Positions 6,761 to 24,477 of a stretch of DNA of 64,000 nt are shown here, in pieces (position 1 is the first letter of the stretch; each line of letters begins with the position of its first letter). The position numbers and the translations under genes are program-made. The stretch lies in assembly GCA_013215775.1 (NCBI GenBank), contig JABSQO010000005.1, forward strand, positions 62,001-126,000. The letters run 5' to 3'. This DNA is from Piscirickettsiaceae bacterium (GTDB taxonomy: Bacteria; Pseudomonadota; Gammaproteobacteria; Nitrosococcales; Methylophagaceae). The notes beneath the pieces are model-generated. The model saw nothing but the letters and a program-made list of their open reading frames with translations. It was not told the DNA's origin and made no database searches.

Positions 6761-7603
6761 TTATCCCAACAATGACAGCGCTACTTGAGGCAATGTATTT
6801 GCTTGAGCTAAAATAGATACACCTGCTTGTTGTAAAATTTGAGCACGTGTTAAGTTTGCAGTTTCTGCAGCAAAATCGGCATCTTCAATACGGCTACGTG
6901 CCGCAGTTAAGTTTATAGAGTAATTTTGTAAGTTTGAGATAACCGCTTCAAATCTATTTTGAACCGCACCAAATGTTGCCCGAGAACTACTGATAGAGTC
7001 AATATCGGTTGTTAAAGCAGCTAACTCTGCTGATGCCAACGCATTGGTAGTAACGTTGATAGTACCTGTTGCTGTTAATGAGGCTGCAAAGGAATTAAAG
7101 CTTGCACTCGCCAAATTCACTGTAGAAACGGCAATTTGATTATTTGCATTACCGTTAGCTCCTACTTGGAAGGTTAGCGAGGTTGCTGCACCACTTAACA
7201 ATACCGTGCCATTAAATTCAGTTGTTGCGATAATACGTGAAATTTCTTGTGTTAATTGATCAACCTCAAGTTGTAAACCAGCCGCATTACCTACGGTAGC
7301 ATTCGATGCTTGAACTGCAATCTCACGAATTCGTTGCAAGTTATTAGCAATTTCACCCAAAGCACCCTCAGCGGTTTGACCCAGAGAGATACCATCGGCA
7401 GCATTACGAACCGCCTGATTGGTACCGCGGATATCACGTGTTAATTGGCTAGCAACGAATAGACCTGCCGCATCATCTTTCGCACTATTGATACGCAAAC
7501 CTGATGATAAACGTTGAAGTGCTACATTTAAATCATTTTGAGATTTTGATAAACTGTTTTGTGCAGTAAGCGAAGCAATGTTTGTATTGATAATAAGAGC
7601 CAT
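6761..7603 (-). CDS. fliC: Flagellin 2 (sigma-28 type)
   Basis: Filament subunit of 280 aa. The conserved D0/D1 ends are [32 protein letters not shown] at the N-side, and [22 protein letters not shown] near the C-end. The central region is short and Ser/Thr-rich, with no large D2/D3 domains, so glycans would sit near the D1 edge. A TTG start 24 nt upstream was rejected because ATG 7603 fits the family and has AGGGGA six bases before it. Its ends are nearly the same as those of flagellin 1. It has its own sigma-28 promoter. Confidence 0.95.
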   Translation of the reverse strand: MALIINTNIASLTAQNSLSKSQNDLNVALQRLSSGLRINSAKDDAAGLFVASQLTRDIRGTNQAVRNAADGISLGQTAEGALGEIANNLQRIREIAVQASNATVGNAAGLQLEVDQLTQEISRIIATTEFNGTVLLSGAATSLTFQVGANGNANNQIAVSTVNLASASFNSFAASLTATGTINVTTNALASAELAALTTDIDSISSSRATFGAVQNRFEAVISNLQNYSINLTAARSRIEDADFAAETANLTRAQILQQAGVSILAQANTLPQVALSLLG

Positions 7604-7697
7604 TATTTTCCCCTGATAGCTCAGCACAGTTGTGACTGTACCTTAAAGTTAACTTTGGCAGATATGCAATGTGATGCATTCACTACCTCCAGCTATG

Positions 7698-7812: not shown

Positions 7813-8655
7813 TTAACCTTGTAGTAACTGCAGTGCTGTTTGAGGCAATGTATTTGCTTGAGCCAAAATGGATACGCCAGCTTGTTGGAGTATTTGGGCT
7901 CGTGTTAAGTTTGCAGTTTCTGCAGCAAAATCAGCATCTTCAATACGACTCCGTGCTGCAGTTAGGTTTTCCGCAAAATTCTGTAAGTTTGAAATGACCG
8001 CTTCAAATCGATTTTGAATCGCACCAAAAGTCGCTCTGGCTTCATTTACTGCATCAATATCTGCAGATAAATCGGCCAATTCTGCAGAAGCCACTGCTGT
8101 GGTAGTCACATTAATAGTACCTGTTGCTGTCAGTGAACCATTGTATGCGTTGAAACTAGCACTTGCCAAATTAACAGTAGACACTGAAACCTGATCTCGA
8201 GTTGTACCATCAGGACCAACATGAAATGTAAGCGAACCTGTAGCACTAATCAAAGCCACACCATTGAAATCAGTTGTCTGGATAATACGCGAAATCTCTT
8301 GGGTTAATTGATCAACCTCAAGTTGTAACCCAGCCGCATTACCCACGGTATCATTTGATGCTTGAATAGCTATCTCACGGATACGTTGTAAATTATTGGC
8401 TATTTCACCCAAGGCTCCCTCAGCAGTTTGACCAAGGGAAATACCATCAGCAGCATTACGAACCGCCTGATTAATACCTCGGATGTCACGAGTTAATTGA
8501 CCTGCCACAAACAAGCCAGCCGCATCATCTTTAGCACTATTGACACGCAAACCAGATGATAATCGTTGTAACGATGTGTTTAAATCATTTTGTGATTTAG
8601 CTAAATTCCTTTGAGCATTCAATGATGCAAGGTTCGTGTTGATAATAAGTGCCAT
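7813..8655 (-). CDS. fliC: Flagellin 1 (sigma-54 type)
   Basis: Filament subunit of 280 aa, paralogue of the next gene downstream. It has the same D0/D1 motifs ([24 protein letters not shown] and a C-terminal [20 protein letters not shown]) and ends in LLQG. The central part, about residues 135-200, differs most between the two. AGGG lies 7 nt before the ATG. It is driven by a sigma-54 promoter and closed by its own terminator, so it can be expressed before FliA is active. A tandem duplication is the likely origin. Confidence 0.95.
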
Positions 8656-8838: not shown

Positions 8839-11800
8839 TTATGTATCTCCCGCTGTCAAGGCATCTTTCCATTCTTGCGAATGGTCTTCAATAATAAAAT
8901 TATCTAACACCCATTGACGTAAATTATCCCCAGAATTTTGTAACTTTTTAGTCGAGGATACGGCTTTAGAGATAGTATCAATCCAAGCTTGTTTGTCATT
9001 AGGCACCCTAATCACCGGAGCCTCATAACTTTGATAAGGCAAAATATCAGTACAGATTACAGGCCAACCTAAAATACCATATTCCAATATGCGTAAATTA
9101 CTTTTAGCCTCATTGAAAGGATGCTGTTCAAGTGGTGCAACCGCCAAGTCTAAATTCAAGCTTGCTAATTTCTCAGGATAATTTTCAATAGATGTAAACT
9201 CATGATATTCCTTTACAAATGGCATTATTTCATCAGGACACATACCCATAAAAATCCAATCAACTTTATCTGCCGTTTCTTTGACAACATCAAAAATGAT
9301 TTCTAAGTCACCATAATGTTGTTGAGCCCCAGCCCAGCCCACTCGAGGTTTGTCTCCTTGCTGCCTCTTACTTGTCAATATTGACCAGACCTTACCTTCT
9401 AGCCTATTAGGAATTACTCTAATATCTTTTATCATATCGAGGCATAGATCTGCCAATGGTTGCGTCGACACAATAAGTCTATCGCAATATTTCAGCACCT
9501 TCCTGATCCTAGATTTCATATCTCTGTAACTTGCTTTAAGCGGTCTATATTGAGAACTGTTTTCTGGTAAGTCATGTAATAAATCATCCAGAGAATACAC
9601 CTTAAATATTTCTGGCAGGTACTCCCCGATTAATCGGATATTATCTATCTCCTCATTTTTGACTACATTCTGAAAAACATATGTATCAGGCTTCATTCGC
9701 GCTGCTTCTGTTAAGAATATATGATGTACTCCCAATTCGCATTGGGCCAGACCAGATTGACTTAACATATTAAAAGGTTGGGTAATACGATAATAACCAC
9801 TGCCTCCAGAGAGCGGTACTCCAAAGCAACGTAGCCGTGTATGAATGTTGACATCCCAATTTTGCAGTCCATTAATATCCACGCTAAAACTTTGGTTACT
9901 CAACACTAAATTTTTATTGTATGCTGGATCAGTAGCTAATTGTGGTAACCACCTTTCCCATATGCTTCTTTGTTCTTGTCGCTCCCTAGTTTTTTTATTA
10001 AATTCCGCATTAATATCTGAATAGAGGCCTTCTGATTTTTCCCGTACACTTGTACTACCATGGTGAACAACCGTGGCATAGGGTGTCCATAAAATTTTAT
10101 AGCCTAATTCTCTTACCTTAATACACAAGTCCACATCATTAAATAGTATCGCTAACTCTTCAGCATCCATGCCTCCAACATGATGGTAAATTTCTTTTTT
10201 AATCAATAATACAGCCGCTGTAACCACAGAAAAGTCTTGTTCCAGTAACGCTCGTCCCATGTGCCCTTTATCAGCTAAACCTAACTCTCCAATATAAGGA
10301 TGATCCGCAATTTGCCCGAGTCCTAAAATCACACCCGCATGCTGTAATTTACCTGATGTCGGGAACACCAGCCGTGCTCCAACGATACCGACATCCTCAC
10401 GCTGGCCATAAGACATCATCCTGCTTAACCATTCATCCTGAATAATTTCAGTATCATTATTCAACATTAACAAATAATCACCAGTCGCTTTTTCTGCTGC
10501 CAAATTATTCATTGCTGAAAAATTAAAGGGTTTATCGTAATAACAAACTTTCAATTTATCTGAAGAATATTGCTCAGTGAGAGTTTGGTAATACGCTAGC
10601 GTATCCAAATCTGTACTTTGATTATCAACAACAATTACCTCAAAGTTGGGGTATGTCGTTTTTTGTAAGAGGCTCTCAATACAAGGTTGAAAATATTCCA
10701 GCTTATCTTTAGTTGGAATAATTACTGTGACCTTTGGCTGCTCTTCATGTAAATATTCAATACGATAACTATTGTCTATATAGCCTTGCTGTATGGAAGT
10801 ATTCAGCTTATTTCTAACCAAGTGTTGCTCTAATGCCACCATACCAGCACTAGCATCAAAAGGTCTATCACCTTCCTTAGGATAGTGAATTAAAACATCC
10901 GCTATATGCCCGACCACAGCCTCGCCATAATTATCCAACCACCGTAGTGCAATATCATAATTTTCTGCTCCAGAAAATTGGCGAATCCCACCGAGCGTAA
11001 GTAATTCTGGCGTACGCATCCATCCGGGACCGATATACGGCGATGAACGTAATAAATCCAGATTAAAGTCTGGTTTAAATCGTGGAGTAGTTCGCACACC
11101 CGATGTATCTATTAAATCATCATCTGTATATATATAAGACCAATCTGGATATAAATTGCTATATTCAGCTATCTTCGCAAATGCATGAACCTCAAATTGA
11201 GTTCCAGGTTCAATAAAAATTGTCCATTGGGTATTTAAGTTTTTTATTTCCCTATTTACTACATCATAGGGAGACTCATTTTGAGTCAACACTATCCAAT
11301 GTAAGTTATCAACTTGCTCAAATATTGAATCTGGACTCTCTGTTTCAGCGATAACAGTCAGATGCCATTTGGAATAAAGTTGAGAAGCCAAAGAATCAAT
11401 CGTATCCGCAAGCAGTGCGCCATCTCCAGGCAAGAAAAATAAGATACAGTGCAATTCAGGATGAGTTTTCCATTTCAGCATCATCTGCTCAGCAATTATT
11501 TCGGCATCAATTTCTCTCAATGCATGCTTCCGAACCCATGTTTGATAGAGGTCATTGTCTAATAATTCTCTAATTTGAGTCTTGAGTTCTTGAGCTACAA
11601 AATCGACTTGGCCTAACGTTTGTTCTTCATCTAATATATTCAGTGATTCATACAATTCATCACGCATTCTCTTCGGAATCCTTTTCCCCTCACTGTAATC
11701 TACTAAGGACTCCGCCTGATTAACAATATTTGAAACCAAATTGGCACAAAAGTAATTACGTCGATCTGCACTACTTACTGGATTATTTAATCCTATTTCT

Positions 11801-12957
11801 CCACTTTTCTGCCGATCTTGTTTTATTTGAGCAGTAATTAATGAAGCCTCTGTCTTTAACAAACTTTTTACAACTTCTGCCAATGACGCCCCTGTTTTCT
11901 CATGAGTGTCTATTGCAATTTGATAAAGAGACCTACTCTCTTTATTGTCTTGCTCTAATAAGTTTAATTCATTATCAGTTATTGGCTTTTTACCCTCAGA
12001 ACGAGGCATATCGCCAAAGGCACTATAGACAGATTTCAATAACTCATGGGCTTGTTGATGGCTGACATCTAACGTCAAAACATCTAATACTAATCCGTAA
12101 ACAATATTCACCGAATATTTGAATGATCCTAGAAATTTGTATTCTGCTTTCTTAGCGGCGTTCGCCAAAAATAATTTTTCCTCAATAATCTGCTTTGCTG
12201 TCGATACATCCACATTTATCAAATTATCACGTCTTTTTATCGCATTAAAAATAACCATCATCGTTTCATAACGACCAGCATAAGCGTGATTACCAGCTTG
12301 CCGCATACTTAAGTTTTTGCCGTGAACTCTATATTCGGTCAATCTCTGGGGTAATCGTTCAATATCATAATATTCTAAGATTCTTAACCAATGATCAAAA
12401 TCCTGTACATAATCTAATACTGGATTAAGGAAACCTACTTCCTTGAGAATTCTTGTTCTAAACATCGCTGAAGGGGCATTAAGAAAGTTTCCTTCCAAAA
12501 GCTGGGACCTGAGATTTAAAATTGGTTGAGAAAATACTGAAGAAAATGAAATGTCTTGCCCTTTACTATCAATTGTATTTACATCAGAACAAACTACGCC
12601 AACATTGGCGTGCTTCTGTAAGAATGCAACTTGAATTTCAAGTCTTGCTGGCAACATTCTGTCATCAGCCCCTAAAATAGCAATGAACTCTCCACGCGCC
12701 TTACTATAAGCTTCATTGAACGTCCGGCACACACCTCGGTTTTTTGCTGAGGAAATAAAGTTCACTTTATCAGGGTGGCATTGCTGCAATTCGGAAATAA
12801 TAGATACAGAATTATCGGTAGATGCATCATCTACGACGATCAACTCCCAGTTTTCATAGGTTTGTGCAAAAACTGATTCTATAGCTTCGCCAATATATTT
12901 ATCATAGTTATAACTGGCAATACAGATACTAACTAAAGGAGTTGTTTGAGCTGACAT
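8839..12957 (-). CDS. Large multi-domain glycosyltransferase, probably for flagellin
   Basis: Cytoplasmic protein of 1372 aa with several transferase modules. Residues about 1-230 are a GT2 domain (VSICIASYNYDKYIGEAI, acidic GADD). Residues about 490-690 resemble a degenerate GT2 with YTDDDLID. Residues about 735-985 are a clear GT2 (VTVIIPTKDK, DXD-like NNDTE, then FNDVDLCIKVRELGY). Residues about 1035-1360 look like a GT-B fold (GSGYYRI near the start, NLRILEYGILGWPVIC near the end). It lies directly upstream of the flagellin genes, so it may build or attach the whole glycan. AAGGA before the ATG supports the start. Acceptor and sugars cannot be read from sequence. Confidence 0.85.
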   Translation of the reverse strand: MSAQTTPLVSICIASYNYDKYIGEAIESVFAQTYENWELIVVDDASTDNSVSIISELQQCHPDKVNFISSAKNRGVCRTFNEAYSKARGEFIAILGADDRMLPARLEIQVAFLQKHANVGVVCSDVNTIDSKGQDISFSSVFSQPILNLRSQLLEGNFLNAPSAMFRTRILKEVGFLNPVLDYVQDFDHWLRILEYYDIERLPQRLTEYRVHGKNLSMRQAGNHAYAGRYETMMVIFNAIKRRDNLINVDVSTAKQIIEEKLFLANAAKKAEYKFLGSFKYSVNIVYGLVLDVLTLDVSHQQAHELLKSVYSAFGDMPRSEGKKPITDNELNLLEQDNKESRSLYQIAIDTHEKTGASLAEVVKSLLKTEASLITAQIKQDRQKSGEIGLNNPVSSADRRNYFCANLVSNIVNQAESLVDYSEGKRIPKRMRDELYESLNILDEEQTLGQVDFVAQELKTQIRELLDNDLYQTWVRKHALREIDAEIIAEQMMLKWKTHPELHCILFFLPGDGALLADTIDSLASQLYSKWHLTVIAETESPDSIFEQVDNLHWIVLTQNESPYDVVNREIKNLNTQWTIFIEPGTQFEVHAFAKIAEYSNLYPDWSYIYTDDDLIDTSGVRTTPRFKPDFNLDLLRSSPYIGPGWMRTPELLTLGGIRQFSGAENYDIALRWLDNYGEAVVGHIADVLIHYPKEGDRPFDASAGMVALEQHLVRNKLNTSIQQGYIDNSYRIEYLHEEQPKVTVIIPTKDKLEYFQPCIESLLQKTTYPNFEVIVVDNQSTDLDTLAYYQTLTEQYSSDKLKVCYYDKPFNFSAMNNLAAEKATGDYLLMLNNDTEIIQDEWLSRMMSYGQREDVGIVGARLVFPTSGKLQHAGVILGLGQIADHPYIGELGLADKGHMGRALLEQDFSVVTAAVLLIKKEIYHHVGGMDAEELAILFNDVDLCIKVRELGYKILWTPYATVVHHGSTSVREKSEGLYSDINAEFNKKTRERQEQRSIWERWLPQLATDPAYNKNLVLSNQSFSVDINGLQNWDVNIHTRLRCFGVPLSGGSGYYRITQPFNMLSQSGLAQCELGVHHIFLTEAARMKPDTYVFQNVVKNEEIDNIRLIGEYLPEIFKVYSLDDLLHDLPENSSQYRPLKASYRDMKSRIRKVLKYCDRLIVSTQPLADLCLDMIKDIRVIPNRLEGKVWSILTSKRQQGDKPRVGWAGAQQHYGDLEIIFDVVKETADKVDWIFMGMCPDEIMPFVKEYHEFTSIENYPEKLASLNLDLAVAPLEQHPFNEAKSNLRILEYGILGWPVICTDILPYQSYEAPVIRVPNDKQAWIDTISKAVSSTKKLQNSGDNLRQWVLDNFIIEDHSQEWKDALTAGDT

Positions 12958-12998: not shown

Positions 12999-14102
12999 TC
13001 ACAGTGTTTTCAATAGATTGATCATCTGGTCAACTTTAACCTTATAATCGGTTAACACTCGTGGAAACAGGGGTAAACTGAACACCTCATTCGCCACTGT
13101 TTCCGTAATTGGAAAACTAGTCTGTGCCATATATTTAGAAAATGCACCAGATAAATGTGGTGGTATCGGATAATGAATTTGCGTAGAAATCCCGTGTGTC
13201 ATTAGTCGTTTTTGTATCATATCTCGTTGAATGCTCTTGACCACAAATAGATGCCAAACTGGCTCGCACCCTTCTAAAATATCTGGTAGCCAAAGGTTTT
13301 CAATGTCAGATAATTGCTCATAATAGAACTTAGCAACATCACGCCTTTGTTGATTCCATTTATCCAACCGTTTCAATTTAACTCTTAAAAAAGCTGCTTG
13401 TAATTCATCTAACCGTGAATTTACGCCTAATAATTCATGATGATATTTTTCCTTACTGCCATAATTACTTAAACATCGTACTGTCTCGGCCAATTCTTGA
13501 TTATGAGTAACGACAGCACCACCATCACCTAGAGCTCCAAGGTTTTTACCTGGATAAAAACTAAATGCGGCTGCATCTGCCAAAGAGCCGACCTGTTTAT
13601 CATAATACCGCGCACCATGCGCCTGAGCAGCATCTTCAATAACCTTTAAACCGTGCTTCTGAGCAATCTTATTAATGGCCAACATATTCGATGGTTGGCC
13701 ATATAGATGAACAGCAATAATAGCCTTTGTCTTGGATGTGATAGCCTGTTCAATTTTAGTAGAATCAATATTGAACGTTCTTTTATCAGGTTCAATTGCG
13801 ATAGGTTTTGCACCAGATTGAACAACTGCCAACCATGTCGCAATAAAAGTATGCGCAGGGACGACCACTTCATCGTCGACACCGATATTCATCGCCTTTA
13901 GGATTAGAACAATGGCATCAAGGCCATTACCCACTCCAACACAATAATTGACACCGCAATACTCTGCAAATTCTTTTTCAAATGCGCTGACTTCTTCGCC
14001 TAAGACAAACCAGCCACCAGCAATTACTTTTTGATATGCCGCATCCAGTTCTTGCTGACATTCACTATTTGATGCTGCTATATCCAGAAAGGGTAAATTC
14101 AT
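12999..14102 (-). CDS. PLP-dependent sugar-nucleotide 3-aminotransferase (FdtB/QdtB-like)
   Basis: DegT/DnrJ/EryC1 aminotransferase, 367 aa. The PLP lysine is K186 in [24 protein letters not shown] supplies the cofactor-binding Asp. Together with the upstream ketoisomerase it should make dTDP-3-amino-3,6-dideoxy-hexose (Fuc3N or Qui3N). The ATG overlaps the end of the ketoisomerase gene by 4 nt. Product stereochemistry depends on the isomerase and is not decided here. A different position specificity within the DegT family is the main alternative. Confidence 0.85.
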
Positions 14103-14512
14103 TTTCGAGTTTCAACATCATCAATAAACTCATCATAACTACGGTAATAATCTTCTTCATCGTATAGTTGCGAAGCTAAAACCATACATACCGAACCCGA
14201 CGAGAAATTATCAATTGTCCGCCACATCATCGAAGGAACATATAATCCATAATATGAACGATTAAGATGAAAGCGATGTTGATTCGCGCCATCATCCAAA
14301 ACAATATCAAAACTACCTGACATGGCTATAATCAATTGTTCGAGATTTTTGTGGGCATGACTCCCACGTTCACTACCGCCAGGCACATCATATGTGTAAT
14401 AAACCCGCTTAATATTAAAAGGGATGTGCTCTCCACCTTCAATAAACGTCAAATTTCCCCGGGGATCCTCAATTCGTGGCAACTCTATAATTCGACATTG
14501 TTCTAATCCCAT
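14099..14512 (-). CDS. dTDP-4-oxo-6-deoxyglucose 3,4-ketoisomerase (FdtA/QdtA-like cupin)
   Basis: Small cupin of 137 aa in the FdtA/QdtA/WxcM-like family, which moves the keto group from C4 to C3 of a dTDP-4-oxo-6-deoxyhexose. Key residues are R49 and H52/H54 in ERGSHAHK, and the start [17 protein letters not shown] region is typical. ATG 14512 was chosen over TTG 14533 because AGGA lies 7 nt before it. It is the first gene behind an internal sigma-54 promoter. The enzymes supplying the dTDP-4-oxo-sugar (RmlA, RmlB) are not in the window. Confidence 0.85.
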
Positions 14513-14555
14513 GAGCCTATCCTCTTTTATCAATTTGTACGTGTGATGTTAAAAT

Positions 14556-14581: not shown

Positions 14582-15406
14582 TCATACCATTGTTTCATAG
14601 CAGCGTACATCATAATCTAGTGTCGCTACATCTATATAATTTCCATTCTCACTAACAATTGAACCTACTTTTCCACTAGACCGTGTCGTCAAAATATCTG
14701 CATACTCTATAGAAATACCATGAATGATCGGTAACTGATATTCTCGAAATGAGAAAGCCCGAATTTGATTCCTGACATCCCTCGCTGACCTATTAAAATC
14801 TATCACTATCTTTGAAAAGTCTAATGCATCCGTAGAAAAATAAGAGGCTCCCTCAAGCATCTGAGGATGCTGTTGATAGTCATCTGCCAAGATAGTCTTA
14901 ATCATTTTTTTGAATAAAATCGTGCCATTTTCAATATACTTTAGATAGAGGCTTCGACATGTTTCATTGCTTGAAAGTGGAAATGTTAACTGTTCAACAA
15001 TATCTCCTGTATCTATTCCATCATCAATACAATGTAGTGTTACTCCAGACTTATCATCGCCAAAAAGTACTGGCCAAACAGAGGTATACATTCCGCGATA
15101 TTTCGGTAATAGTGAAAAATGAATATTAAATATTCTTGTCGTGTTCATCTCTTCTGTACGGATGATACGATCAAACTCAAGTGAGAAAAAAATAAAATCC
15201 GTTAGTGTATAAATATCAGGGAAATCGATTGCCACTATTTTCTCTTGCTGACAAAATTTTCTAAAACTCAATTGGAACGAATCAATACCAACATCTGTTT
15301 TATTGAAACACGCCACAATATCTTCTTTTCTGACTCCTAGTTCACTAATAAGGTATCGAACACAATCAATAGCAATATTATTCTTTCCCGCAATACAAAT
15401 TTTCAT
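14582..15406 (-). CDS. Sugar-nucleotide N-formyltransferase (QdtF/VioF-like)
   Basis: Protein of 274 aa in the formyltransferase family using N10-formyl-tetrahydrofolate. The catalytic triad is complete: N94 and H96 in FNIHFSLLPKYRG and D132 in IDDGIDTGDI. The C-terminal 80 residues form an extra domain not needed for Met-tRNA formylation. Next to 3-ketoisomerase and 3-aminotransferase genes, the likely reaction is N-formylation of a dTDP-3-amino-3,6-dideoxyhexose. It overlaps the upstream GT61 gene by 4 nt. It is too short and in the wrong context for a housekeeping fmt. Confidence 0.8.
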   Translation of the reverse strand: MKICIAGKNNIAIDCVRYLISELGVRKEDIVACFNKTDVGIDSFQLSFRKFCQQEKIVAIDFPDIYTLTDFIFFSLEFDRIIRTEEMNTTRIFNIHFSLLPKYRGMYTSVWPVLFGDDKSGVTLHCIDDGIDTGDIVEQLTFPLSSNETCRSLYLKYIENGTILFKKMIKTILADDYQQHPQMLEGASYFSTDALDFSKIVIDFNRSARDVRNQIRAFSFREYQLPIIHGISIEYADILTTRSSGKVGSIVSENGNYIDVATLDYDVRCYETMV

Positions 15407-16884
15407 CCAATATCTACTTTACTAATTGTCAGTTCAATTTCATCTAATTCTACTAAATAGTCAGTATGGATATTATCTTGTGATTGATTCACAACACTGT
15501 GTCCTTGCACCTCAAAGAAATTTTGTATGCCACAGGCTTGTGTTAAATTTCGGAAATATATGCCAATGTTTTTTTCTGATTGAGCAATAAGAATAACTGA
15601 GCACTTAGACTCACAAAACACTAAATTGGAGAATGATGCCCCTGTCGGTCCGGCAACAATTTTTGCAGATGAAAACAACTCAACCTGTTGAAAAAAACTA
15701 AGCTTGGCAGTATCTATTATTTCAAAACCATTGTTAGAAAAACACAGTTCAACTTCATCCTGATTCAGCATTTTTCGTTTCTGTAATGTCGAGCCACGTC
15801 TAGACAAATAGATTTTACGGGACAGTGGCTTTTTATTGCTGTCTTTTCTAAACCGATTACGCAGAAAAGCAAGAGCTTCTGGGTGATAACAAGCATCATC
15901 AGTATTTAAAATGACATTCGGTAACGGATCAAAACAAATTTTAGATAACTTTGACGGTATAACAGCTGTGCCAATGGTGTACCTGTTCCCCGCTTCAGCT
16001 CTTATAACTTGCCTATTTTCACCCAATAAGTTTTGCAATATAACATAGTGTTGATCAGGCATATGCCCATGGACTAGGATGGGTAAGCTTTCATATTCAG
16101 CACATGTTTCAATTAATAACCACTTAGGAACCACTTCCAACAACCAATGATAATAGTTATCAGCAGCACGACTATTTAATACAATACAGGACTCAATGTA
16201 GAGAGATTGATTAGGAATGCCTGCTAACACCATATCCTGTTCATCTTTCCCTTCCGCTTTTTTAAAACCGATAATATTTCTTGTCCAGGTTGTCGACACA
16301 ATATCACTACGTTCAGTCTCAGCATAATCTTGATCATCTGCTAAATAGATCATGTCACTGCTAAATATAGCACTAGATTGCCCGACAGAATGTACATTGT
16401 TCAATTCAGCAATATAGGGTTTTTCCATCGCTGCTGAACTTGACTCTAGTTGAATATTCAGTCGTTTTCCATTGCCCTCTTCAATGTATGCTCCCATCCC
16501 CTTAATAGGGAAAAATTCCAACATACTATTTTGTGGATCGAGATCGTAAATAAGTTTTATCCGTCTCATTAATTCATCGTTATATGAATTCCTAACTAAT
16601 GCATGAAAGTAAGCTTCGTAAGCCTGATTCTTTTCTCCCCGAACGCTATAAATATCGCCTAATACTTGATAAAAAAACCAATCCTCATTACCGCCATATT
16701 TTTGTGCGGATGATATATATATCAAAGCCTGGGAGAGATCATCTAATTTTAAATGAACAAGTGCTGCCAATGTCAGGATATGAAAATCTTTAGGATTGCT
16801 TATCAATTCTGACACAAGGATATCCTTAGCCTCATCAAAATTATTATTTTCAATAAGAGATTGTGTATTTTTAATTAAATTCAT
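15403..16884 (-). CDS. TPR domain - GT61 family glycosyltransferase
   Basis: Protein of 493 aa. Residues about 1-115 form TPR-like helical pairs, and the rest is a GT61/DUF563 transferase marked by NYYHWLLEVVPKWL, ISLSRRGS-like KIYLSRRGS and the late GPTGASFSNLVFC. GT61 enzymes transfer varied sugars in polysaccharides and glycoproteins. The TPR part may bind the acceptor protein (inference). The ATG at 16884 overlaps the stop of the cytidylyltransferase gene by one base (TGATG). A TTG 21 nt upstream was rejected. Confidence 0.78.
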   Translation of the reverse strand: MNLIKNTQSLIENNNFDEAKDILVSELISNPKDFHILTLAALVHLKLDDLSQALIYISSAQKYGGNEDWFFYQVLGDIYSVRGEKNQAYEAYFHALVRNSYNDELMRRIKLIYDLDPQNSMLEFFPIKGMGAYIEEGNGKRLNIQLESSSAAMEKPYIAELNNVHSVGQSSAIFSSDMIYLADDQDYAETERSDIVSTTWTRNIIGFKKAEGKDEQDMVLAGIPNQSLYIESCIVLNSRAADNYYHWLLEVVPKWLLIETCAEYESLPILVHGHMPDQHYVILQNLLGENRQVIRAEAGNRYTIGTAVIPSKLSKICFDPLPNVILNTDDACYHPEALAFLRNRFRKDSNKKPLSRKIYLSRRGSTLQKRKMLNQDEVELCFSNNGFEIIDTAKLSFFQQVELFSSAKIVAGPTGASFSNLVFCESKCSVILIAQSEKNIGIYFRNLTQACGIQNFFEVQGHSVVNQSQDNIHTDYLVELDEIELTISKVDIG

Positions 16885-17645
16885 CAAATCCCTTGCCAAC
16901 GCCAATCATGTAACCACAATGAATTTTGATTTGATATTGTCTTATATTGAGCTAAATCATTTTCATCATCTATTTCTAGCCAGCGTCCGCTTATCCCAAC
17001 TGTATTAATTTTTATACCATTAGTCAGTAATCGCTGTAATAATGCCGTCATATCTAAATTATCGATAACTTGCTTAGATTCAAGATCTAGTACTTTCTTT
17101 ATCTGCTTCCATCCCTCTGGGCGAATCAATAGTAAGCCCATATATTGTCCCGATATTTCAGCTAAATCCGATACTGTTCGACCAATATCTACTAATACAC
17201 CATCCTGCTCAGCAAAACTTTCTGCATCATCTAAAGGGTTTTCAAAACGAAGACTCCATAAATCTAACCATTTTTTATCATAAGAAATGACAATATCCCC
17301 TTTCGCCAAGGATAGTTCTTTAACAATATCAGGATGGTAAACAATATCTCCATAAGACACGATACATTCTTGTGATGAAAGTATGTCATCCGCACAGAGC
17401 AATGTTCTAACCATATTAGAAACCGCCCAATCGAAATTATGAATGCTCTTTGTTTTGTAAAAAGAAAATTGTTCTGCAAGATAGCCCGTCATGACCGTCA
17501 CATCATTTATCCCTGACTCTGCCATAGCAGCCAGTTGCCACTCAAACAATGTCTTTCCAGCCAAGTTAACTAGGGGTTTTGGTTTATTATCCGTTAATGT
17601 ATTTAATCGTGATCCACGACCTGCCGCCAAAATAATCCCTTTCAT
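16884..17645 (-). CDS. Nucleotidyltransferase, predicted phosphoglutamine cytidylyltransferase (Cj1416-like)
   Basis: Protein of 253 aa with a Rossmann-type NTP-transferase fold. The N-terminal signature is IILAAGRGSRLNTLTDNKPKPLV, with D99 in YGDIVYH and a C-terminal WLEIDDENDL typical of LicC-type cytidylyltransferases. Alone it could be a phosphocholine or sugar-phosphate cytidylyltransferase. Its position directly after the amidotransferase and PEP-synthase-like genes is the order of C. jejuni Cj1416-Cj1417-Cj1418, so CTP + L-glutamine phosphate to gamma-glutamyl-CDP-amidate is predicted. It overlaps its upstream neighbour by 4 nt. Confidence 0.75.
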   Translation of the reverse strand: MKGIILAAGRGSRLNTLTDNKPKPLVNLAGKTLFEWQLAAMAESGINDVTVMTGYLAEQFSFYKTKSIHNFDWAVSNMVRTLLCADDILSSQECIVSYGDIVYHPDIVKELSLAKGDIVISYDKKWLDLWSLRFENPLDDAESFAEQDGVLVDIGRTVSDLAEISGQYMGLLLIRPEGWKQIKKVLDLESKQVIDNLDMTALLQRLLTNGIKINTVGISGRWLEIDDENDLAQYKTISNQNSLWLHDWRWQGI

Positions 17646-18298
17646 CCATTATTTCCCAACAGAGCCCAACGAAATAACTTTCTATCCATTTCAGAAAATT
17701 CCTTTTCTCGCTCAGGATGCCACATCATTGCAAATATACGAGCTTCTTTCCATATAACTGCCTCTACATCACCTTCATCAGTTCTCGCAAACGGAATAAT
17801 TGATCGTGGTTGGAACTTTTCGGATAAACCAAAACCATGGAATGAATTAACTTCTAATGTAGTATTCGACGATGCAATACCATTCATACTTTGACAGATA
17901 TTGACTGTATGTCTGCTAGCGATATGATTTTCGGCTAATGACCTTAACTCTCCCCCGAAGTGTTGCCATATAATTTGTAAACCTCGACAAACACCCACAA
18001 TGGGTAAGTGGTGATCTATAGCATAGTCAATCAATGCAAATTCTGTTTCATCACGCAGTGGATATTCCCCAACATCATTTCCTCCTGATAAAATAATGCC
18101 TTCAAGCTGATGAGATTGTGCAAATTCACATACTGCATCCGAGCCGAGATTTGGTATTAATATCCAATTAATATCGTCGCCCATTGACCAAGCTAAAAAA
18201 TCATTCCAATTATGTGCAAGCGTATCGCGTTGTTCATCGTAATGAATTTCTTCAATGATACGCATCGTTATACCAATTGTTTTCTTCAACTTATTCAT
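17642..18298 (-). CDS. Class I glutamine amidotransferase, predicted gamma-glutamyl-CDP-amidate hydrolase (Cj1417-like)
   Basis: Protein of 218 aa, peptidase C26/gamma-glutamyl hydrolase fold. Nucleophile C104 is in GVCRGLQ, and H194 and E196 are in WHPERE, completing the triad. LEGIILSGGNDV and NSFHG fit the gamma-glutamyl hydrolase branch rather than synthase-coupled amidotransferases. In C. jejuni the homologue removes glutamate from gamma-glutamyl-CDP-amidate to give CDP-phosphoramidate. It overlaps the glutamine-kinase-like gene by 8 nt and the cytidylyltransferase gene by 4 nt, so all three are translationally coupled. Confidence 0.78.
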   Translation of the reverse strand: MNKLKKTIGITMRIIEEIHYDEQRDTLAHNWNDFLAWSMGDDINWILIPNLGSDAVCEFAQSHQLEGIILSGGNDVGEYPLRDETEFALIDYAIDHHLPIVGVCRGLQIIWQHFGGELRSLAENHIASRHTVNICQSMNGIASSNTTLEVNSFHGFGLSEKFQPRSIIPFARTDEGDVEAVIWKEARIFAMMWHPEREKEFSEMDRKLFRWALLGNNG

Positions 18299-20681
18299 GA
18301 CGAATAGCTTTTAACACTTTGCTATGACAGTTCAGCACAATGTGATCTGTAGTAGTCATACGTCTAAATGTCTGTTCACCGCAACCAATTGCAGCAGGTA
18401 TTCCAAATTCAGCACAACGGATAGCCATATGAGAATTCACACCACCAAATTGTGTAATCAAACCAAGTATGCCTTTAGTAAATATCCAATCAAAGCCAGG
18501 ATCCGCATTTTTAATGCATACGATCTTGTTAAACAGTGGCTGTGATACAGAAGATTTTTCATCTAGGATAACAGGTTGACCTTCTACGATTTCTGTTGTG
18601 ACAAAATTAGGATCATTACGATTTAATGGCACCACAAATACATCTCGTGCATCTCGTAATAGATGTCCTAAACGGAGTGGTTGTGCTGCACGTAAGTTTT
18701 TCTCAGCTTCGGATGCTAAGTTAAGGAAATGTCGATCTTGATAATCTAATAAGGGAGATAACTGTGAGGCCGAAATATCCTGCCAATCTAAATAAGATAC
18801 ATCTTCACGAGATAAGCCATTTTTCTCTCCCCACACTTCTAAGCTAAACAAAGCGTCCGATAGGTTTTTTGTAAAAACAAACTTACCTAACTCTCTCCCT
18901 TTTATTGCCATTTCGGCATACTGTAAAAATATCTCTGGCGCTATTGTTAGTCCATTTTCATCAAATAGTTGGCTGACCAGTTCAAGCTCTTGCTCCGTAA
19001 AAATAAATGATTTCGATGATTGTTTAGTATAAGTTATTGATGGGGATGAAAATAAATCGGGACATTCATCGTACCGCATCGAAGTAATGTCATATGTGCC
19101 TGGTCGCAAGTGCCCATATTTATTTATAAAATCAGCCACTAGATCTTCATCTTGTCCTGCCTGTTGAAAATCGGTAACCAAATTACTGGTCACTGTCTGC
19201 ACAGCTTGTTTCAACTGTTCGACTCGCTTAGTAGTTAGCGCATCACGAGTTATTAAAGAGCGAAGAATTGCTTCAACGATAAATCCGTGGCGAGCCAAAC
19301 AAGCAAAAGGTAAAGTCCCAAATTGTTGACATTCATTGAGTAACTCAATAGCTGTTTGTAAAGGATCACTACTATTTTGTATGTTGTCTTTATGTCTACT
19401 TTGTTGCTGGATAACTAATTGATTTACTCGTGCCATCGAGGTCTGTAAATTTCCTTTCTCACTAATATCCATTAAATGATTGGTCAATAATCGTAATTCA
19501 GATTGATAGTCAAATAATTGCTGTGAATCTAATAAGTTTGGGTATCGCTCAGCAAAACTTCGTTCAAAATCAACATCCATACAAGTATGTGCAATTTCAA
19601 ATTCAACCTTATCATGTAGTTCAGGATTCTGGTTTAATCTCTCAAGCCAAGCATCAACCAACAAAGAACCAATCTCATTTGACAAATTCTCAGGTAAAAA
19701 GGAATTAAAACTATTTCGTATATCAATATAAGGATGATGATCTATCACCACCATTAATTCTTCAGCGGGCACATTACGGTACCCCATCATTGCCCTGGCA
19801 TCACGCCATATAGAATGCGTTATTAAGTGCCGATATAACGATACCGCCAGAGGACGTGAGGTGACACCAATAATTTCAGCAGGATTCCAATCACTCATCA
19901 CCCCTAAAATAGTTCGTTGTCCAAGCAATGATTTTTTGGGTAATGATCTTTGATTGATAAATTGCTCGATAAATGTCAATTTACGAGAAGTTCGCCGCTC
20001 CGTGACAGGGTGCCAAGTGTGGTGTAATGCTATACGGCGTACTTGTAGAATATACAATTCATTTAAAGGTGTTAGTACAAATTCAACATCAAGAGGTTCA
20101 TTGCCACATATTTCTTCTAACTCATGTAATCCTTTAAGGATAGTTCTTATCCGATCAGATTCAATTAAAGATCGATCATATTCTCGATAAACTAATACTG
20201 TTTTATTAACTTCCTGTCCTGATGTGACCGTATCCGTACGGCCGGTTTCATCATCGTAACTAATAACATAATATGGCGCTCCCGTTTCAATATCATGTGT
20301 CATCGCTACACCACTCAGTGCAATATCTTGCAACATTGGCTGTACAAGCACTTGATCTAATGGGTTACCAGAGAATGAGCTCATGACTTTCAAAATGGAA
20401 TTTTTTATATCTAAAAAATTATCTGTTTTTACATTTAATACGGAATCATATGCACCTGCCATCGAGTTGGCTTGACCGTCTTCGCCTTGCGCACTACTTC
20501 GTATAGCTAAAAATTCATCTGAAAAATGTGATGTGATGTGATGCAGAATATTATCTGACTTCCGGTTCCACTGATCGCATGTAAACACATACTGTGGCAA
20601 CAACTTGCCCAAAGAAAGTTTATCTTTCAACAATGCTAACGTTTCCGATTTTGTACCGAAATGAAATTTATGTGTATTCAT
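18291..20681 (-). CDS. PEP-synthase-like enzyme, predicted L-glutamine kinase (Cj1418-like)
   Basis: Protein of 796 aa with the PPDK/PEP-synthase layout. An N-terminal ATP-binding domain carries AIRSSAQGEDGQANSMAGAY and YILQVRR. A long linker follows, then a C-terminal swivelling domain with predicted phospho-histidine H751 in GGVNSHMAIRCAEFGIPA. There is no PEP/pyruvate-binding barrel as in true PEP synthase. This matches the glutamine kinase of the C. jejuni phosphoramidate pathway, which makes L-glutamine phosphate from ATP. Rifampin phosphotransferase shares the fold but not the gene context. Confidence 0.78.
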   Translation of the reverse strand: MNTHKFHFGTKSETLALLKDKLSLGKLLPQYVFTCDQWNRKSDNILHHITSHFSDEFLAIRSSAQGEDGQANSMAGAYDSVLNVKTDNFLDIKNSILKVMSSFSGNPLDQVLVQPMLQDIALSGVAMTHDIETGAPYYVISYDDETGRTDTVTSGQEVNKTVLVYREYDRSLIESDRIRTILKGLHELEEICGNEPLDVEFVLTPLNELYILQVRRIALHHTWHPVTERRTSRKLTFIEQFINQRSLPKKSLLGQRTILGVMSDWNPAEIIGVTSRPLAVSLYRHLITHSIWRDARAMMGYRNVPAEELMVVIDHHPYIDIRNSFNSFLPENLSNEIGSLLVDAWLERLNQNPELHDKVEFEIAHTCMDVDFERSFAERYPNLLDSQQLFDYQSELRLLTNHLMDISEKGNLQTSMARVNQLVIQQQSRHKDNIQNSSDPLQTAIELLNECQQFGTLPFACLARHGFIVEAILRSLITRDALTTKRVEQLKQAVQTVTSNLVTDFQQAGQDEDLVADFINKYGHLRPGTYDITSMRYDECPDLFSSPSITYTKQSSKSFIFTEQELELVSQLFDENGLTIAPEIFLQYAEMAIKGRELGKFVFTKNLSDALFSLEVWGEKNGLSREDVSYLDWQDISASQLSPLLDYQDRHFLNLASEAEKNLRAAQPLRLGHLLRDARDVFVVPLNRNDPNFVTTEIVEGQPVILDEKSSVSQPLFNKIVCIKNADPGFDWIFTKGILGLITQFGGVNSHMAIRCAEFGIPAAIGCGEQTFRRMTTTDHIVLNCHSKVLKAIRHE

Positions 20682-20690
20682 AATTAAGCA

Positions 20691-21410
20691 TCAATCATTT
20701 AAAGATAAAATTGCCAAATGTTTCAATAAAGGGTGTACAACAAAATACATTTCCCCTTCACTGTCTTTATCTATTTTTTTAGGCAATGCCATTGTCATTA
20801 CATAGTCTGTTAGCACTGATACCAGAAGATCAGCTCTAATTGAGCAATCATACAAATAATCAATGTCCGTAGTTTTAGTGGGAGCCTGGTAATGCTTTCT
20901 AGCTAAGATTGGTCCATCATCAATATTTTCTGTTAAGAGTAACGCTGATGCCGCACAACGATTTTCATTCAATAAACTATAATATATTGTTGTACTACCT
21001 CGATAGTCTGGCAACCAACCTGAGTGTATATGCAGTAATTGGCCTGAAGAATTTAATGTCTGCGTTGGAACAATCTGTCCTCCAAATCCAGAAAATATTG
21101 TTAGCTTCGGTGCAAGTTCATTTAAGAGCTTGTTAAGCTCTTTGCCACCTATATCATCATTATCAATATACGTGGCATCCCACATGCATTCATCTATTGT
21201 TTGTTGAATTGAAATACTAAAATCAGGTGTAAAAGCACCTAATACTGCAGGTTGTTGTGATTGAACTTGTGCCGTGTTTCTATCTTCTGAACAACCATAG
21301 ACAATAACATGTGACGGAATCAAGTTTGTGAATTGAATTGCCTGTAAATATGCTTGTGAACGTGCAGTTGGTGCACATAACACAATAAATTTTCCATCCT
21401 CATTACTCAT
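20691..21410 (-). CDS. Formyltransferase-like protein with altered catalytic Asn
   Basis: Protein of 239 aa similar to the N-terminal domain of formyltransferases. The LLHIHSGWLPDYRG motif aligns with the NxHxSLLPxxRG motif, but the catalytic Asn is His (H127); H129 and D164 (NIDDGPILARK) remain. No C-terminal sugar-nucleotide domain is evident. It lies inside the phosphoramidate set, 9 nt before the glutamine kinase gene, and overlaps the upstream unknown gene by ATGA. It may act on a substrate of that pathway or on a sugar; the function is not established. Confidence 0.6.
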   Translation of the reverse strand: MSNEDGKFIVLCAPTARSQAYLQAIQFTNLIPSHVIVYGCSEDRNTAQVQSQQPAVLGAFTPDFSISIQQTIDECMWDATYIDNDDIGGKELNKLLNELAPKLTIFSGFGGQIVPTQTLNSSGQLLHIHSGWLPDYRGSTTIYYSLLNENRCAASALLLTENIDDGPILARKHYQAPTKTTDIDYLYDCSIRADLLVSVLTDYVMTMALPKKIDKDSEGEMYFVVHPLLKHLAILSLND

Positions 21411-21964
21411 AACATTCCTGACTTAACATTATGAATAATATTTTTTTCCATAGATAACAACCAATTAAGACCGCCAAGTTGTCGGGCAGTCAATTTATAC
21501 TGCTGTGAAACCAGCGTGTCCATTACTTTAAGTAAAGTATTAACCCATTGTATTTTATAATTTTCTTCAGTCAGTTTAACCAATAACTCTCCAAATAAGA
21601 GATAAAGATCCAACTCATCATATATTGCTGAGAGAGCTGGCTTGTGAGGAGGGATTCGTTGATAGTGGGAAAATAATCGCTTACTAACTTCAAACTTTTT
21701 GACTAAACGAGCAATCCAATAATCCTTGTCTTCTTGTCCATCATTAATTAGATTTAATAATAATAGTTGCGTATCAATCTCATCTAATCTTATTTTTTGC
21801 TCAATACATTGTGTCGGCTTTTTAGCTTCTTCATCAGATGTGTAGACTGCTAATCGATTTTCTTGCCAACCATCAATAAATTCTTCACCTCGAAAGGTAG
21901 TATAAAAATAGGTGTTTGGCTGTTCGAGCAATCGTTTATCAGTATAGGGGTATTTTTCACTCAT
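21407..21964 (-). CDS. Protein of unknown function in the phosphoramidate set
   Basis: I do not recognise this 185-aa protein. It is soluble, with no signal peptide or membrane segment. It has an aromatic-rich N-terminus (YPYT, TYFYTTFRGEEFIDGW) and a mostly helical remainder rich in Leu, Lys and Glu. ATG 21964 was chosen over TTG 22000 because GGGGA lies 6 nt before it. It overlaps the CysC-like gene by 8 nt and the next gene by 4 nt. Tight coupling argues that it works with the neighbours. No SAM-binding motif was seen, so it is not an obvious methyltransferase. Confidence 0.7.
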   Translation of the reverse strand: MSEKYPYTDKRLLEQPNTYFYTTFRGEEFIDGWQENRLAVYTSDEEAKKPTQCIEQKIRLDEIDTQLLLLNLINDGQEDKDYWIARLVKKFEVSKRLFSHYQRIPPHKPALSAIYDELDLYLLFGELLVKLTEENYKIQWVNTLLKVMDTLVSQQYKLTARQLGGLNWLLSMEKNIIHNVKSGML

Positions 21965-22481
21965 CAGTGATCCCCGACACAGATAATATCTGAGTGACAA
22001 ATTGATCTATATCTGATGAGTCATGCGTATTATTTATCACTAAATTTGGATGAAGTGGTATCTCAAAAGGAATATCAACTCCAACTACATTGTTTGTTTT
22101 TCCAGATAATGCAGGGGCATATAGTGATTTGTCATCACGGGCTACTAATTCATCTAGCGGGACATCGATAAACACTTCAACATACTGGTTTAAGTTATCA
22201 CGATTCCATTGCCTATGCTCTTCAAATATTGATAATAAACAACATACAACATTAATTTTCTGGTCGTCTAATAACTTACATAAAGCAAGTGCTCTTTCTG
22301 CATTCACACGCCTTCCATCAAGACTATAATCAGTTTTGATATTGTCATGGGAAAATATTTGTCGAAGATGATCCCCATCTAGTAAAACTGTGTTTGAATC
22401 TGTTTCTCGCCACCGTCGATAAACTTCCTTTCCTATTGTCGATTTGCCGGCTCCTGATAGACCAATAATCCAGATCACCAT
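21957..22481 (-). CDS. CysC-like kinase, predicted cytidine diphosphoramidate kinase (Cj1415-like)
   Basis: Protein of 174 aa in the adenylylsulfate kinase family. Walker A is GLSGAGKS at residues 7-14, followed by LLDGDHLR and RVNAERALALCKLL, and later RDDKSLYAPALSGKTNNVVGVD. No ATP sulfurylase or other cys gene lies nearby, and the gene sits with the three phosphoramidate-type genes. In C. jejuni the relative phosphorylates the 3'-OH of CDP-phosphoramidate. Genuine APS kinase is the alternative; sequence motifs alone do not separate them. ATG 22481 was preferred to TTG 22487. Confidence 0.75.
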   Translation of the reverse strand: MVIWIIGLSGAGKSTIGKEVYRRWRETDSNTVLLDGDHLRQIFSHDNIKTDYSLDGRRVNAERALALCKLLDDQKINVVCCLLSIFEEHRQWNRDNLNQYVEVFIDVPLDELVARDDKSLYAPALSGKTNNVVGVDIPFEIPLHPNLVINNTHDSSDIDQFVTQILSVSGITDE

Positions 22482-22490
22482 AACCAAATA

Positions 22491-23552
22491 TTAACCTTTC
22501 CCTTGCATAGCGATAATATTACCTGCAGATTTAATTGCTGCTGCTGCTACCTCAGATGAAAAGCCGTAATGTGGAGCAAAATAATATTGCCTCAACTTTT
22601 TCCTTGCAAGATTCTGCTCTTGCCAAATTTCAGCATCATTAAAGATATCTCGTATTTTATGGAAGGAAAATATATCAATATTGATAATCTGTTCTCTCAA
22701 AGCGAGATCAGGTGAATTCTCTCCAGATAATGGATCATTGGAAGCATTAGGTAAATTCAGTAATAGTAGCGGTTTATCAAGATATATCGCCCCAAAGGCT
22801 GTTCCACCATAATCACAAACAACCTTGTCAGAAATAGCGAATAAAAACACATTATCTACAACAGTTGTAATCACCGCAGTAAAATTTAGATTCATCAATT
22901 TCGCAACCACATCAGGTTCTTCTTCCAATGATAAAGGGTGCAGTTTTACAATAATGTTATAACTGTCCATCAAAGATGACATCAATTCCGCATACATATC
23001 GACTGAAGATAATTCTTTCCAAGTTGGCAGCCAAAGGATTGTCTCTTTAGCAGGATCACAATCTAATTTCTGTTTAAAATCGGTAAGTTCTAACTCTTGA
23101 TTGAAGTAAATATCATATCGTGGATACCCCATCTGAACAGAGGGTGCATTAAATTGTGTTAATTGTTGCTCATGGAACGGACCAAAACATAGAAATATAT
23201 CGTAATAGTGGTTCCATTCAGAAAAATTATGGCGACCTTTCCCTAACGCATACATAAAGCGAATGTTACATTCACCAAGCACCTTAATCAGTGGTACACC
23301 TTGAAAAGCATGCATTGCATGATTTGAAATTAAATAAGGGAAACGGTGCTGCTCCGCTAAAACATCCTCAATTATTACGTAATTAACTCTATACTCTTGG
23401 CAGGCTTCGATAGTACGCTCACGTTCAAATTGTGATCCATGGACTATTACTAAGAATTCGTTCCTTTCTAACTTATCCCAAACCGGTGAATAGTGATTAA
23501 ACATTTCAGAGAAATGCACTAAAAATGCAATATTAATGTCCTTAAATACCAT
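22491..23552 (-). CDS. CDP-glycerol glycerophosphotransferase-like (TagB/TagF fold) protein
   Basis: Protein of 353 aa with a GT-B-like fold of the TagB/TagF/SpsB group: LWLPTWKE, IIVKLHP, and CDYGGTAFGAIYLDKPLLLLN, which matches the DySS-fEa-lLdKP nucleotide-binding block. No membrane segment. Family members transfer a phospho-group from a CDP-linked donor. As the first gene after flgL and next to predicted CDP-phosphoramidate genes, it is a candidate for the final phosphoramidyl transfer, though a polyol-phosphate or sugar transferase is also possible. No promoter or terminator is visible in the 37-nt gap to flgL. Confidence 0.7.
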   Translation of the reverse strand: MVFKDINIAFLVHFSEMFNHYSPVWDKLERNEFLVIVHGSQFERERTIEACQEYRVNYVIIEDVLAEQHRFPYLISNHAMHAFQGVPLIKVLGECNIRFMYALGKGRHNFSEWNHYYDIFLCFGPFHEQQLTQFNAPSVQMGYPRYDIYFNQELELTDFKQKLDCDPAKETILWLPTWKELSSVDMYAELMSSLMDSYNIIVKLHPLSLEEEPDVVAKLMNLNFTAVITTVVDNVFLFAISDKVVCDYGGTAFGAIYLDKPLLLLNLPNASNDPLSGENSPDLALREQIINIDIFSFHKIRDIFNDAEIWQEQNLARKKLRQYYFAPHYGFSSEVAAAAIKSAGNIIAMQGKG

Positions 23553-23589: not shown

Positions 23590-24477
23590 TTAGAGAAAAT
23601 TAAACAACGATAAACCCTGTACCCTCACGTAAGATTGTTGTGCCGCTTCCAGCCCTACTGCTTGTAAATTCAACCGCGTAATAGCCTCTGCATAATCTAA
23701 ATCTTCTATCTGTGATAATAATGTCTCTTGGCTTAATTTGCTACTTTCATTAATATCTCGCTGCTGGTCAATAATATTAAGTCGTGTGCCTACTCTTGTT
23801 CGAGCATTTAGCACTGAATCCATTGTTGTATCAATATTGGTCAGAAATGTCGCATTACCTGTGGGCCCTCGTGGGTCAACACTAATATCAGCTGCAAAAT
23901 CCTGAATAAGCTGAAATACAGAGGCTGCACCATCACCAAATATAGTATTGCCCGGCTCATTTATCTCTACTAAATAACCAGAACCAACTCGTAATTGACG
24001 TTGCCCACTATCTCCGCCGTAAGTATATGTTGTGGGGTCAAATGCTTGTGTACCAGACTGATAACCAGAAAATAGGAATTCACCATTGGCATCTTGAGTA
24101 TTAGCCAAACCCACTAAGGCTTCATTTAGTTGGGTCATTTCTTCCGCTATCCCCTGTCGAGCAGCAGCATCATTTGTGTCATTAAGCGCTTGGATCGCTA
24201 ATTCTCGAACACGTTGCAAAATATTAGTTGCACTATCCAGAATGCCGTCTGTTACCGATAATTTATTGTCCGCTTTATCTGCGTTTAACAAATATTGATC
24301 TGCCAAACTAATTTCACGTTGTAGACCCAAAATTTGAACAGCAGCAACAGGATCATCAGCAGAGCTCAATAATGTTTTCCCTGAACTAACTTGCTGTTGT
24401 GTCTTTACTAACTCTGACTGCCGTTGCAATATTGAATCAATACTCTGTTGGGTGATCTGACTAGTAGAAATTCGCAT
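23590..24477 (-). CDS. flgL: Flagellar hook-filament junction protein FlgL
   Basis: HAP3, 295 aa, exported and placed between FlgK and the filament. Flagellin-like ends are visible: N-terminal QRQSELVKTQQQVSSGK and TLLSSADDPVAAVQIL, and C-terminal SQIEDLDYAEAITRLNLQAVGLEAAQ. Starts 14 nt after flgK and ends the canonical flg series. Confidence 0.95.
   Translation of the reverse strand: MRISTSQITQQSIDSILQRQSELVKTQQQVSSGKTLLSSADDPVAAVQILGLQREISLADQYLLNADKADNKLSVTDGILDSATNILQRVRELAIQALNDTNDAAARQGIAEEMTQLNEALVGLANTQDANGEFLFSGYQSGTQAFDPTTYTYGGDSGQRQLRVGSGYLVEINEPGNTIFGDGAASVFQLIQDFAADISVDPRGPTGNATFLTNIDTTMDSVLNARTRVGTRLNIIDQQRDINESSKLSQETLLSQIEDLDYAEAITRLNLQAVGLEAAQQSYVRVQGLSLFNFL

Follow-up and report, generated by a model that had tools for sequence, protein, structure and literature searches.

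Known phosphoramidate systems and the locus

To our knowledge, phosphoramidate caps have so far been shown on Campylobacter capsules only. The described sites are N-acetylgalactofuranosamine (GalfNAc) and heptose of the Campylobacter jejuni capsule (PMC3907429; PMC6429109), and a 2022 review (PMC9561416) regards the glutamine kinase as specific to C. jejuni. In the open-access papers covered, no flagellin glycan was found described as bearing phosphoramidate, and those naming both phosphoramidate and flagellin concern mainly the Campylobacter capsule; a C. botulinum flagellar-island paper was set aside as a precedent, as phosphoramidate appears there in a reference title only. Here we analysed a 64,000-nucleotide stretch of a Piscirickettsiaceae bacterium (contig JABSQO010000005.1, positions 62,001 to 126,000; hereafter the window), from a 2.22-Mb assembly that is 99.8 % complete, and identified a seven-gene cassette that very likely holds the core of a cytidine diphosphate (CDP)-phosphoramidate pathway. 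The reading we favour, with reasonable confidence, is that the operon encodes the synthesis of phosphoramidate (P-NH2) in activated form and the placement of this cap, modified by an additional protein pair, on a flagellin O-glycan sugar.

The cassette occupies positions 16884-23552 as a single minus-strand run in the order GPT-CysC-unk-FT1-GlnK-GAT-CCT:

22491..23552, minus strand: GPT, CDP-glycerol:glycerophosphotransferase-like, candidate phosphoramidate transferase (PF04464, 47 bits against a cut-off of 22.1)
21957..22487, minus strand: CysC-like kinase, candidate CDP-phosphoramidate 3'-kinase (NF004041/PRK05541, 164 bits; first ATG near 22481)
21407..21964, minus strand: unk, FT1 partner predicted to be helical, assigned to no described family (unmatched in Pfam and NCBIfam)
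20691..21410, minus strand: FT1, formyltransferase-fold enzyme with H-x-H replacing N-x-H (PF00551, 33.9 bits)
18291..20681, minus strand: GlnK, phosphoenolpyruvate (PEP)-synthase-like glutamine kinase candidate with phosphohistidine His751 (NF004508/PRK05849, 904 bits)
17642..18298, minus strand: GAT, class I amidotransferase, candidate gamma-glutamyl-CDP-amidate hydrolase (NF045546, 112 bits)
16884..17645, minus strand: CCT, LicC-like nucleotidyltransferase, candidate CTP:phosphoglutamine cytidylyltransferase (PF12804/PF00483)

The same four enzyme classes as in the C. jejuni capsular O-methyl phosphoramidate (MeOPN) route (Cj1415-Cj1418) were recognized, by family models rather than by direct comparison with the Cj sequences; GlnK, GAT and CCT are contiguous, and the CysC-like kinase is not of the adenosine 5'-phosphosulfate (APS) kinase type. 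The locus departs from that of C. jejuni in that CysC stands first, the transferase candidate belongs to PF04464 (in contrast to Cj1421/Cj1422), FT1 and unk are found instead of an S-adenosylmethionine (SAM) methyltransferase in the island, and the setting is a flagellin island, not a capsule locus. A prior sequence-only reading had listed the four enzymes in the C. jejuni order. All four are present and intact, with GlnK, GAT and CCT ordered as claimed, but CysC comes first and is separated from them by unk and FT1, which that reading had passed over; GPT is also part of the run. Its statement that the genes overlap or nearly touch was borne out, as adjacent genes from CysC to CCT overlap or have at most 9 bases between them, and GPT and CysC are 3 bases apart.

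Probable core pathway enzymes

Families were assigned from Pfam and NCBIfam model scores against curated cut-offs, with 20 families ranked for GAT. GlnK far exceeded the cut-off of its best model (501 bits) and scored 37-53 bits on rifampin phosphotransferase and PEP synthase models, whose cut-offs are at least 598; its score on the rifampin phosphotransferase model NF041857 (cut-off 999) was 36.8 bits. The CysC-like kinase passed PRK05541 (cut-off 127) and failed the apsK model TIGR00455 (106 bits, cut-off 138.7), whilst a separate canonical CysC in the same genome displayed the reverse pattern (apsK 275 bits, PRK05541 123 bits). The catalytic residues named in the sequence-only reading are all in place. 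Across related loci, GlnK residues R61, E67, D68, E200, Q213, R215 and H751 were kept in 92/92 sequences, the GAT triad in nearly all related loci (Cys104 71/72, His194 71/72, Glu196 72/72), and the P-loop Lys in the window's CysC and all 51 cassette CysCs. A CCT-family gene was present in 84 loci of the comparative set described below.

Two observations count against this assignment. The best of the 20 families for GAT was the pathway family gamma-glutamyl-CDP-amidate hydrolase (runner-up 55.6 bits), but its score misses the curated cut-off of 250 bits, and equivalog membership is not claimed for that reason. Five further cassette GATases (glutamine amidotransferases), from loci of both the FT1 and the methyltransferase type, scored 85-123 bits, likewise below the cut-off, indicating that low scores characterize the family at large rather than being peculiar to the window copy. 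In addition, the solved structure nearest to CCT is the CTP:phosphocholine cytidylyltransferase 1jyk (E 1.5e-14), and the family models used do not separate this LicC-like protein, which adjoins GAT, from choline enzymes. For GlnK and GATase, the solved-structure search returned no relatives beyond generic families.

The likeness of CCT to LicC and the place of CysC within the APS-kinase superfamily would suit a reading in which the enzymes do other chemistry, namely sulfate activation (CysC), phosphocholine (CCT) and resistance-type phosphotransfer (GlnK). We consider this very improbable. The APS kinase and rifampin phosphotransferase scores fall short as given above, canonical CysC is encoded elsewhere in the genome, no LicD (PF04991) match was found anywhere in it, and most of some 95 loci drawn from many phyla carry GlnK together with GAT and CCT. 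The refuting outcomes set out in the sequence-only reading were accordingly not seen in the comparisons made. The window's genome also holds a second APS-kinase-like gene, divergent and extended at its N terminus (L126; G000:C12:75627-76067), which adjoins cytochrome-like and sodium:alanine symporter-like genes.

Distribution of the cassette

A profile from ten GlnK sequences, searched against species-representative genomes, retrieved at least 573 related stretches, and the best 80 (L045-L124) were taken as comparative loci. This sample leans to loci resembling the window's GlnK, many of them are metagenome-assembled genomes (MAGs), and the loci are not independent. They span Pseudomonadota, Desulfovibrio relatives, Verrucomicrobiota, Omnitrophota, Bacteroidota, Bacillota, Haloferax and others, with no Campylobacter among these best 80 of at least 573 matches. 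GlnK was present in 10/369 gammaproteobacteria in a class-wide sample and in 2/29 genomes of the window's genus. Plasmids of Vibrio, Azospirillum, Agrobacterium and others bear the GlnK/GAT/CCT set; no GlnK relatives were found in viral contigs, and phage records held generic GATases and nothing closer.

The full seven-gene order was identified in Alteromonas ponticola, a Burkholderiales MAG, five Pseudomonas genomes, Aeromonas sanarellii, Curvibacter, Zoogloea, Sedimenticola and the same-genus genome G008, and with unk and FT1 fused in Methylotenera oryzisoli, a betaproteobacterial MAG and Rubricella. Paraglaciecola carries the CysC-to-CCT part. The order is kept across gamma-, beta- and alphaproteobacteria, with GlnK 44-49 % identical to that of the window. 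The GlnK copies of the window and G008 were placed in separate parts of the GlnK tree, suggesting that the two cassettes were probably acquired separately.

Outside Proteobacteria, glutamine-kinase cassettes with GAT, CCT and CysC were seen in two Lachnospiraceae (L117, L119) and in the haloarchaeon Haloferax elongans (L124). An orphan GATase (L044:9713-10366; 154 bits to the window's GAT) adjoins a resistance-nodulation-division (RND) efflux operon and is accompanied by no other cassette gene. GATase homologues in G042 and G049 were not used, one being on a 3-kb contig and the other solitary, outside any cassette.

FT1/unk and the SAM methyltransferase as probable alternatives

Among 67 loci with GlnK and CysC, FT1 was present in 34, one SAM methyltransferase family in 15 and both in none (Fisher p 3e-6); a stricter FT1 search combined with a looser methyltransferase search gave one overlap in 60 loci (p 3.6e-4). 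When the FT1 and methyltransferase labels were mapped onto the GlnK tree, its well-supported branches required four or more changes between them, indicating that the pattern is not a single-lineage effect. The unk gene accompanies FT1 in 32 of the 34 loci having GlnK, CysC and FT1, and unk-FT1 and CysC-unk fusions occur in several other loci. No methyltransferase domain was found among the scanned proteins of the window's island. Because FT1/unk and the methyltransferase are mutually exclusive and have been swapped repeatedly, the window's cap is probably not O-methyl phosphoramidate. The O-methyl product known from C. jejuni, to which the sequence-only reading had pointed, need not apply here, since the methyltransferase is absent from the island and a formyltransferase-like pair stands in its place. 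On balance, we lean towards FT1/unk replacing methylation.

In fold and motif position FT1 resembles the sugar N-formyltransferases ArnA, WbkC and VioF; the fused FT1 relative in L055 has an ArnA/WbkC-like fold, with ArnA as its top Foldseek match (E 2.7e-12). It differs from them in its partner unk, its GSTT signature and its active site, where the cassette-family motif LHxHxGxLPxYRGSTT retains the catalytic His and Asp but replaces Asn with His, so that the canonical Asn-x-His...Asp set of N10-formyl-tetrahydrofolate formyltransferases is not complete. The unk model was predicted to be helical (predicted local distance difference test, pLDDT, 90) with invariant residues Y5, Y7, Y19, Y21, R37, F91, Y101, Y121, D149 and E173, and its fold returned no Foldseek match with E <0.037. 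A likeness to (alpha/alpha) sugar epimerases (VIA best Z 9.8) fell inside the helical-model background and was not used. Tentatively, FT1/unk may acylate the phosphoramidate N or O, giving for example N-formyl phosphoramidate. This would be an undescribed phosphorus-nitrogen (P-N) group, displayed by members of many phyla on flagellin and on certain O-antigens, and a single widespread pathway would then have FT1/unk and the methyltransferase as exchangeable modules for its last step.

This interpretation has to be set against the H-x-H change, by which FT1 may no longer transfer formyl groups, and against the counts being drawn mostly from the 80 non-independent loci nearest the window's GlnK. 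The Asn-to-His change throughout the cassette family would also fit FT1/unk being a regulatory or scaffold pair, with plain, unmodified phosphoramidate transferred; given the retained His and Asp and the extra conserved GSTT stretch, as expected of an active enzyme, we regard this as quite unlikely. A further alternative is that FT1 is unrelated to phosphoramidate and N-formylates the 3-amino-3,6-dideoxy sugar made by FdtA and DegT, in keeping with its sugar N-formyltransferase fold and with the presence of FdtA in 14/40 FT1 loci versus 0/16 methyltransferase loci. However, the sugar genes of the window's island already include a canonical formyltransferase, FT2; neither FdtA nor DegT is present in 17 FT1 loci; and FT1/unk, besides excluding the methyltransferase, lie next to CysC or are fused to it. 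We therefore view a role in sugar formylation as doubtful. At L062:7844-9968, an unk-FT1 fusion frame seems to overlap a second FT1 frame, a possible frameshift or duplication.

Linkage to flagellin

The cassette is bordered upstream by flgL, 37 bases from GPT, and beyond CCT the run continues through sugar and glycosyltransferase genes to two flagellins, followed by flaG, fliD, fliS, fliT and fleQ. The remaining genes from flgL to the flagellins are:

23590..24477, minus strand: flgL, hook-associated protein 3, bordering the island upstream (TIGR02550, 283 bits against a cut-off of 127)
15403..16905, minus strand: TPR (tetratricopeptide repeat)-like glycosyltransferase 61, GT61 (PF04577, 81.7 bits)
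14582..15406, minus strand: FT2, canonical N-x-H sugar N-formyltransferase-like (PF00551, 58 bits; NIH...D intact in alignment)
14099..14533, minus strand: FdtA-type dTDP (deoxythymidine diphosphate)-4-keto-6-deoxyhexose 3,4-ketoisomerase (PF05523, 196 bits)
12999..14102, minus strand: DegT-family sugar aminotransferase, FdtB-like (PF01041, 389 bits)
8839..12957, minus strand: 1372-aa multidomain glycosyltransferase adjoining the flagellins, flagellin glycosyltransferase candidate (PF00535, two stretches)
7813..8655, minus strand: flagellin (PF00669, 133 bits)
6761..7627, minus strand: flagellin, second copy (PF00669, 130 bits)

Nucleotide-sugar and glycosyltransferase genes thus lie between flgL and flagellin, as in a flagellar glycosylation island, and the position given in the sequence-only reading was right. 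The island resembles Pseudomonas-type flgL-fliC flagellin glycosylation islands in location, nucleotide-sugar genes and a large multidomain cytoplasmic glycosyltransferase adjoining the flagellins, and differs from them by the added phosphoramidate cassette. Horizontally acquired islands are often of lower G+C; here the island has a G+C of 0.35-0.39 versus 0.40-0.42 in the flagellar genes upstream. Repeats in the island amounted to short chance-like matches and nothing else.

The flagellar setting recurred in unrelated genomes far above chance. The contigs of 30 loci were screened for flagellin-family genes with PF00669, a model that FlgL matches as well. Such a gene lay within 10 kb of GlnK in 6/30 genomes (expected 0.31, Poisson p 1e-6, approximately 20-fold enriched) and within 30 kb in 9/30 (expected 0.76, p 1e-7). 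Three betaproteobacterial islands (L048, L055, L056) are collinear with the window, comprising GPT...CCT, FdtA, DegT, fliC, flaG and fliD. At least six location changes were forced on the GlnK tree, indicating that recruitment to flagellin, or loss of linkage, was repeated.

Other loci argue against flagellin as the target. In 21/30 genomes no flagellin-family gene was found within 30 kb of GlnK, and the sole other carrier found in the genus (L042) has its cassette in an O-antigen-like locus, with genes for an epimerase and an undecaprenyl-type sugar transferase at its end. Flagellin was not found near the cassettes of Pseudomonas, Zoogloea, Sedimenticola and the same-genus G008. These loci would be expected if phosphoramidate were made as proposed but attached to a surface polysaccharide (O-antigen or capsule), the flgL-fliC position being a shared landing site for glycan genes. 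We judge this unlikely for the window, where no flippase, polymerase, ABC (ATP-binding cassette) exporter or sugar transferase was seen among the genes of the island and cytoplasmic glycosyltransferases adjoin flagellin; the enrichment within 10 kb and the three collinear islands point the same way. Flagellin thus remains the acceptor we consider rather probable here. Given the loci unlinked to flagellin, the cassette seems to serve glycan capping in general and to have been borrowed by flagellin islands; it is not flagellum-specific, a qualification to the flagellar setting stressed by the sequence-only reading.

GPT as candidate transferase and the proposed route

GPT is the sole PF04464 gene in the window's genome and is a candidate for the phosphoramidate transferase. 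It resembles CDP-glycerol glycerophosphotransferases (TagF/TarB) in its domain, its K.HP and GYPRxD-type motifs and the CDP-activated donor of that family, and differs from them in being encoded with a CDP-phosphoramidate cassette; on the TarB NCBIfam model it scored 25 against a cut-off of 500. The motifs GYPRxD, LPTWK, K.HP and DYGG are kept in the proteobacterial cassette set, and close GPT relatives were present in 17/40 FT-type loci versus 0/16 of the methyltransferase type.

We infer the individual reactions, the function of GPT and the choice of flagellin as target from the gene families and their arrangement; the reaction order follows the review cited above and the Cj1415-1418 route. 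GlnK would phosphorylate the glutamine side-chain nitrogen via His751, CCT would move CMP (cytidine monophosphate) from CTP onto phosphoglutamine, and GAT would cleave the gamma-glutamyl amide to give CDP-phosphoramidate, to which the CysC-like kinase would add a 3'-phosphate. FT1 and unk, in the position of the SAM methyltransferase of other lineages, would act on the group next, one-carbon acylation being the simplest possibility. GPT, a relative of enzymes moving phospho-groups from CDP donors, would transfer it to a glycan that is built on flagellin in the cytoplasm by the products of the sugar genes FdtA, DegT and FT2 together with the transferases GT61 and GT2.

By sequence, the core pathway extends to over 570 loci in many phyla, including Haloferax. 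Two alternative finishing modules occur with it, and flagellin islands have recruited it repeatedly. If the proposed chemistry is true, P-N groups would be a common bacterial surface currency, with possible effects on motility, on the recognition of flagellin and on phage receptors. FT1/unk represents a defined protein pair with uncharacterized chemistry, GPT is the transferase candidate, and the carriers include cultured, non-pathogenic bacteria such as Methylotenera oryzisoli, Alteromonas ponticola and Paraglaciecola arctica, so that the proposal is open to test.

Further transferase-like genes were observed near the cassette elsewhere. A second PF04464 family (GPTb) occurs alongside GlnK in L035, L037, L079, L089, L103, L111, L116 and L122; in several of these loci no CysC was found, yet an FT1-like gene with the motif HxHPGxxPxVRGSDGLLWS was present. 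Sulfotransferase-like genes lie near the cassette at L066:16597-17586, L096:16051-17013 and L105:8964-9941 (PF00685 shown for L105). Such a neighbour would fit a 3'-phospho donor, making these genes a possible transferase using a 3'-phosphonucleotide donor, which we note as a lead only. Elsewhere in the window, a 1167-aa repetitive surface-type protein with DUF5801, Big_9 and cadherin-like domains is encoded on the same strand (33480-36983), immediately upstream of the genes for the flagellar rod and hook.

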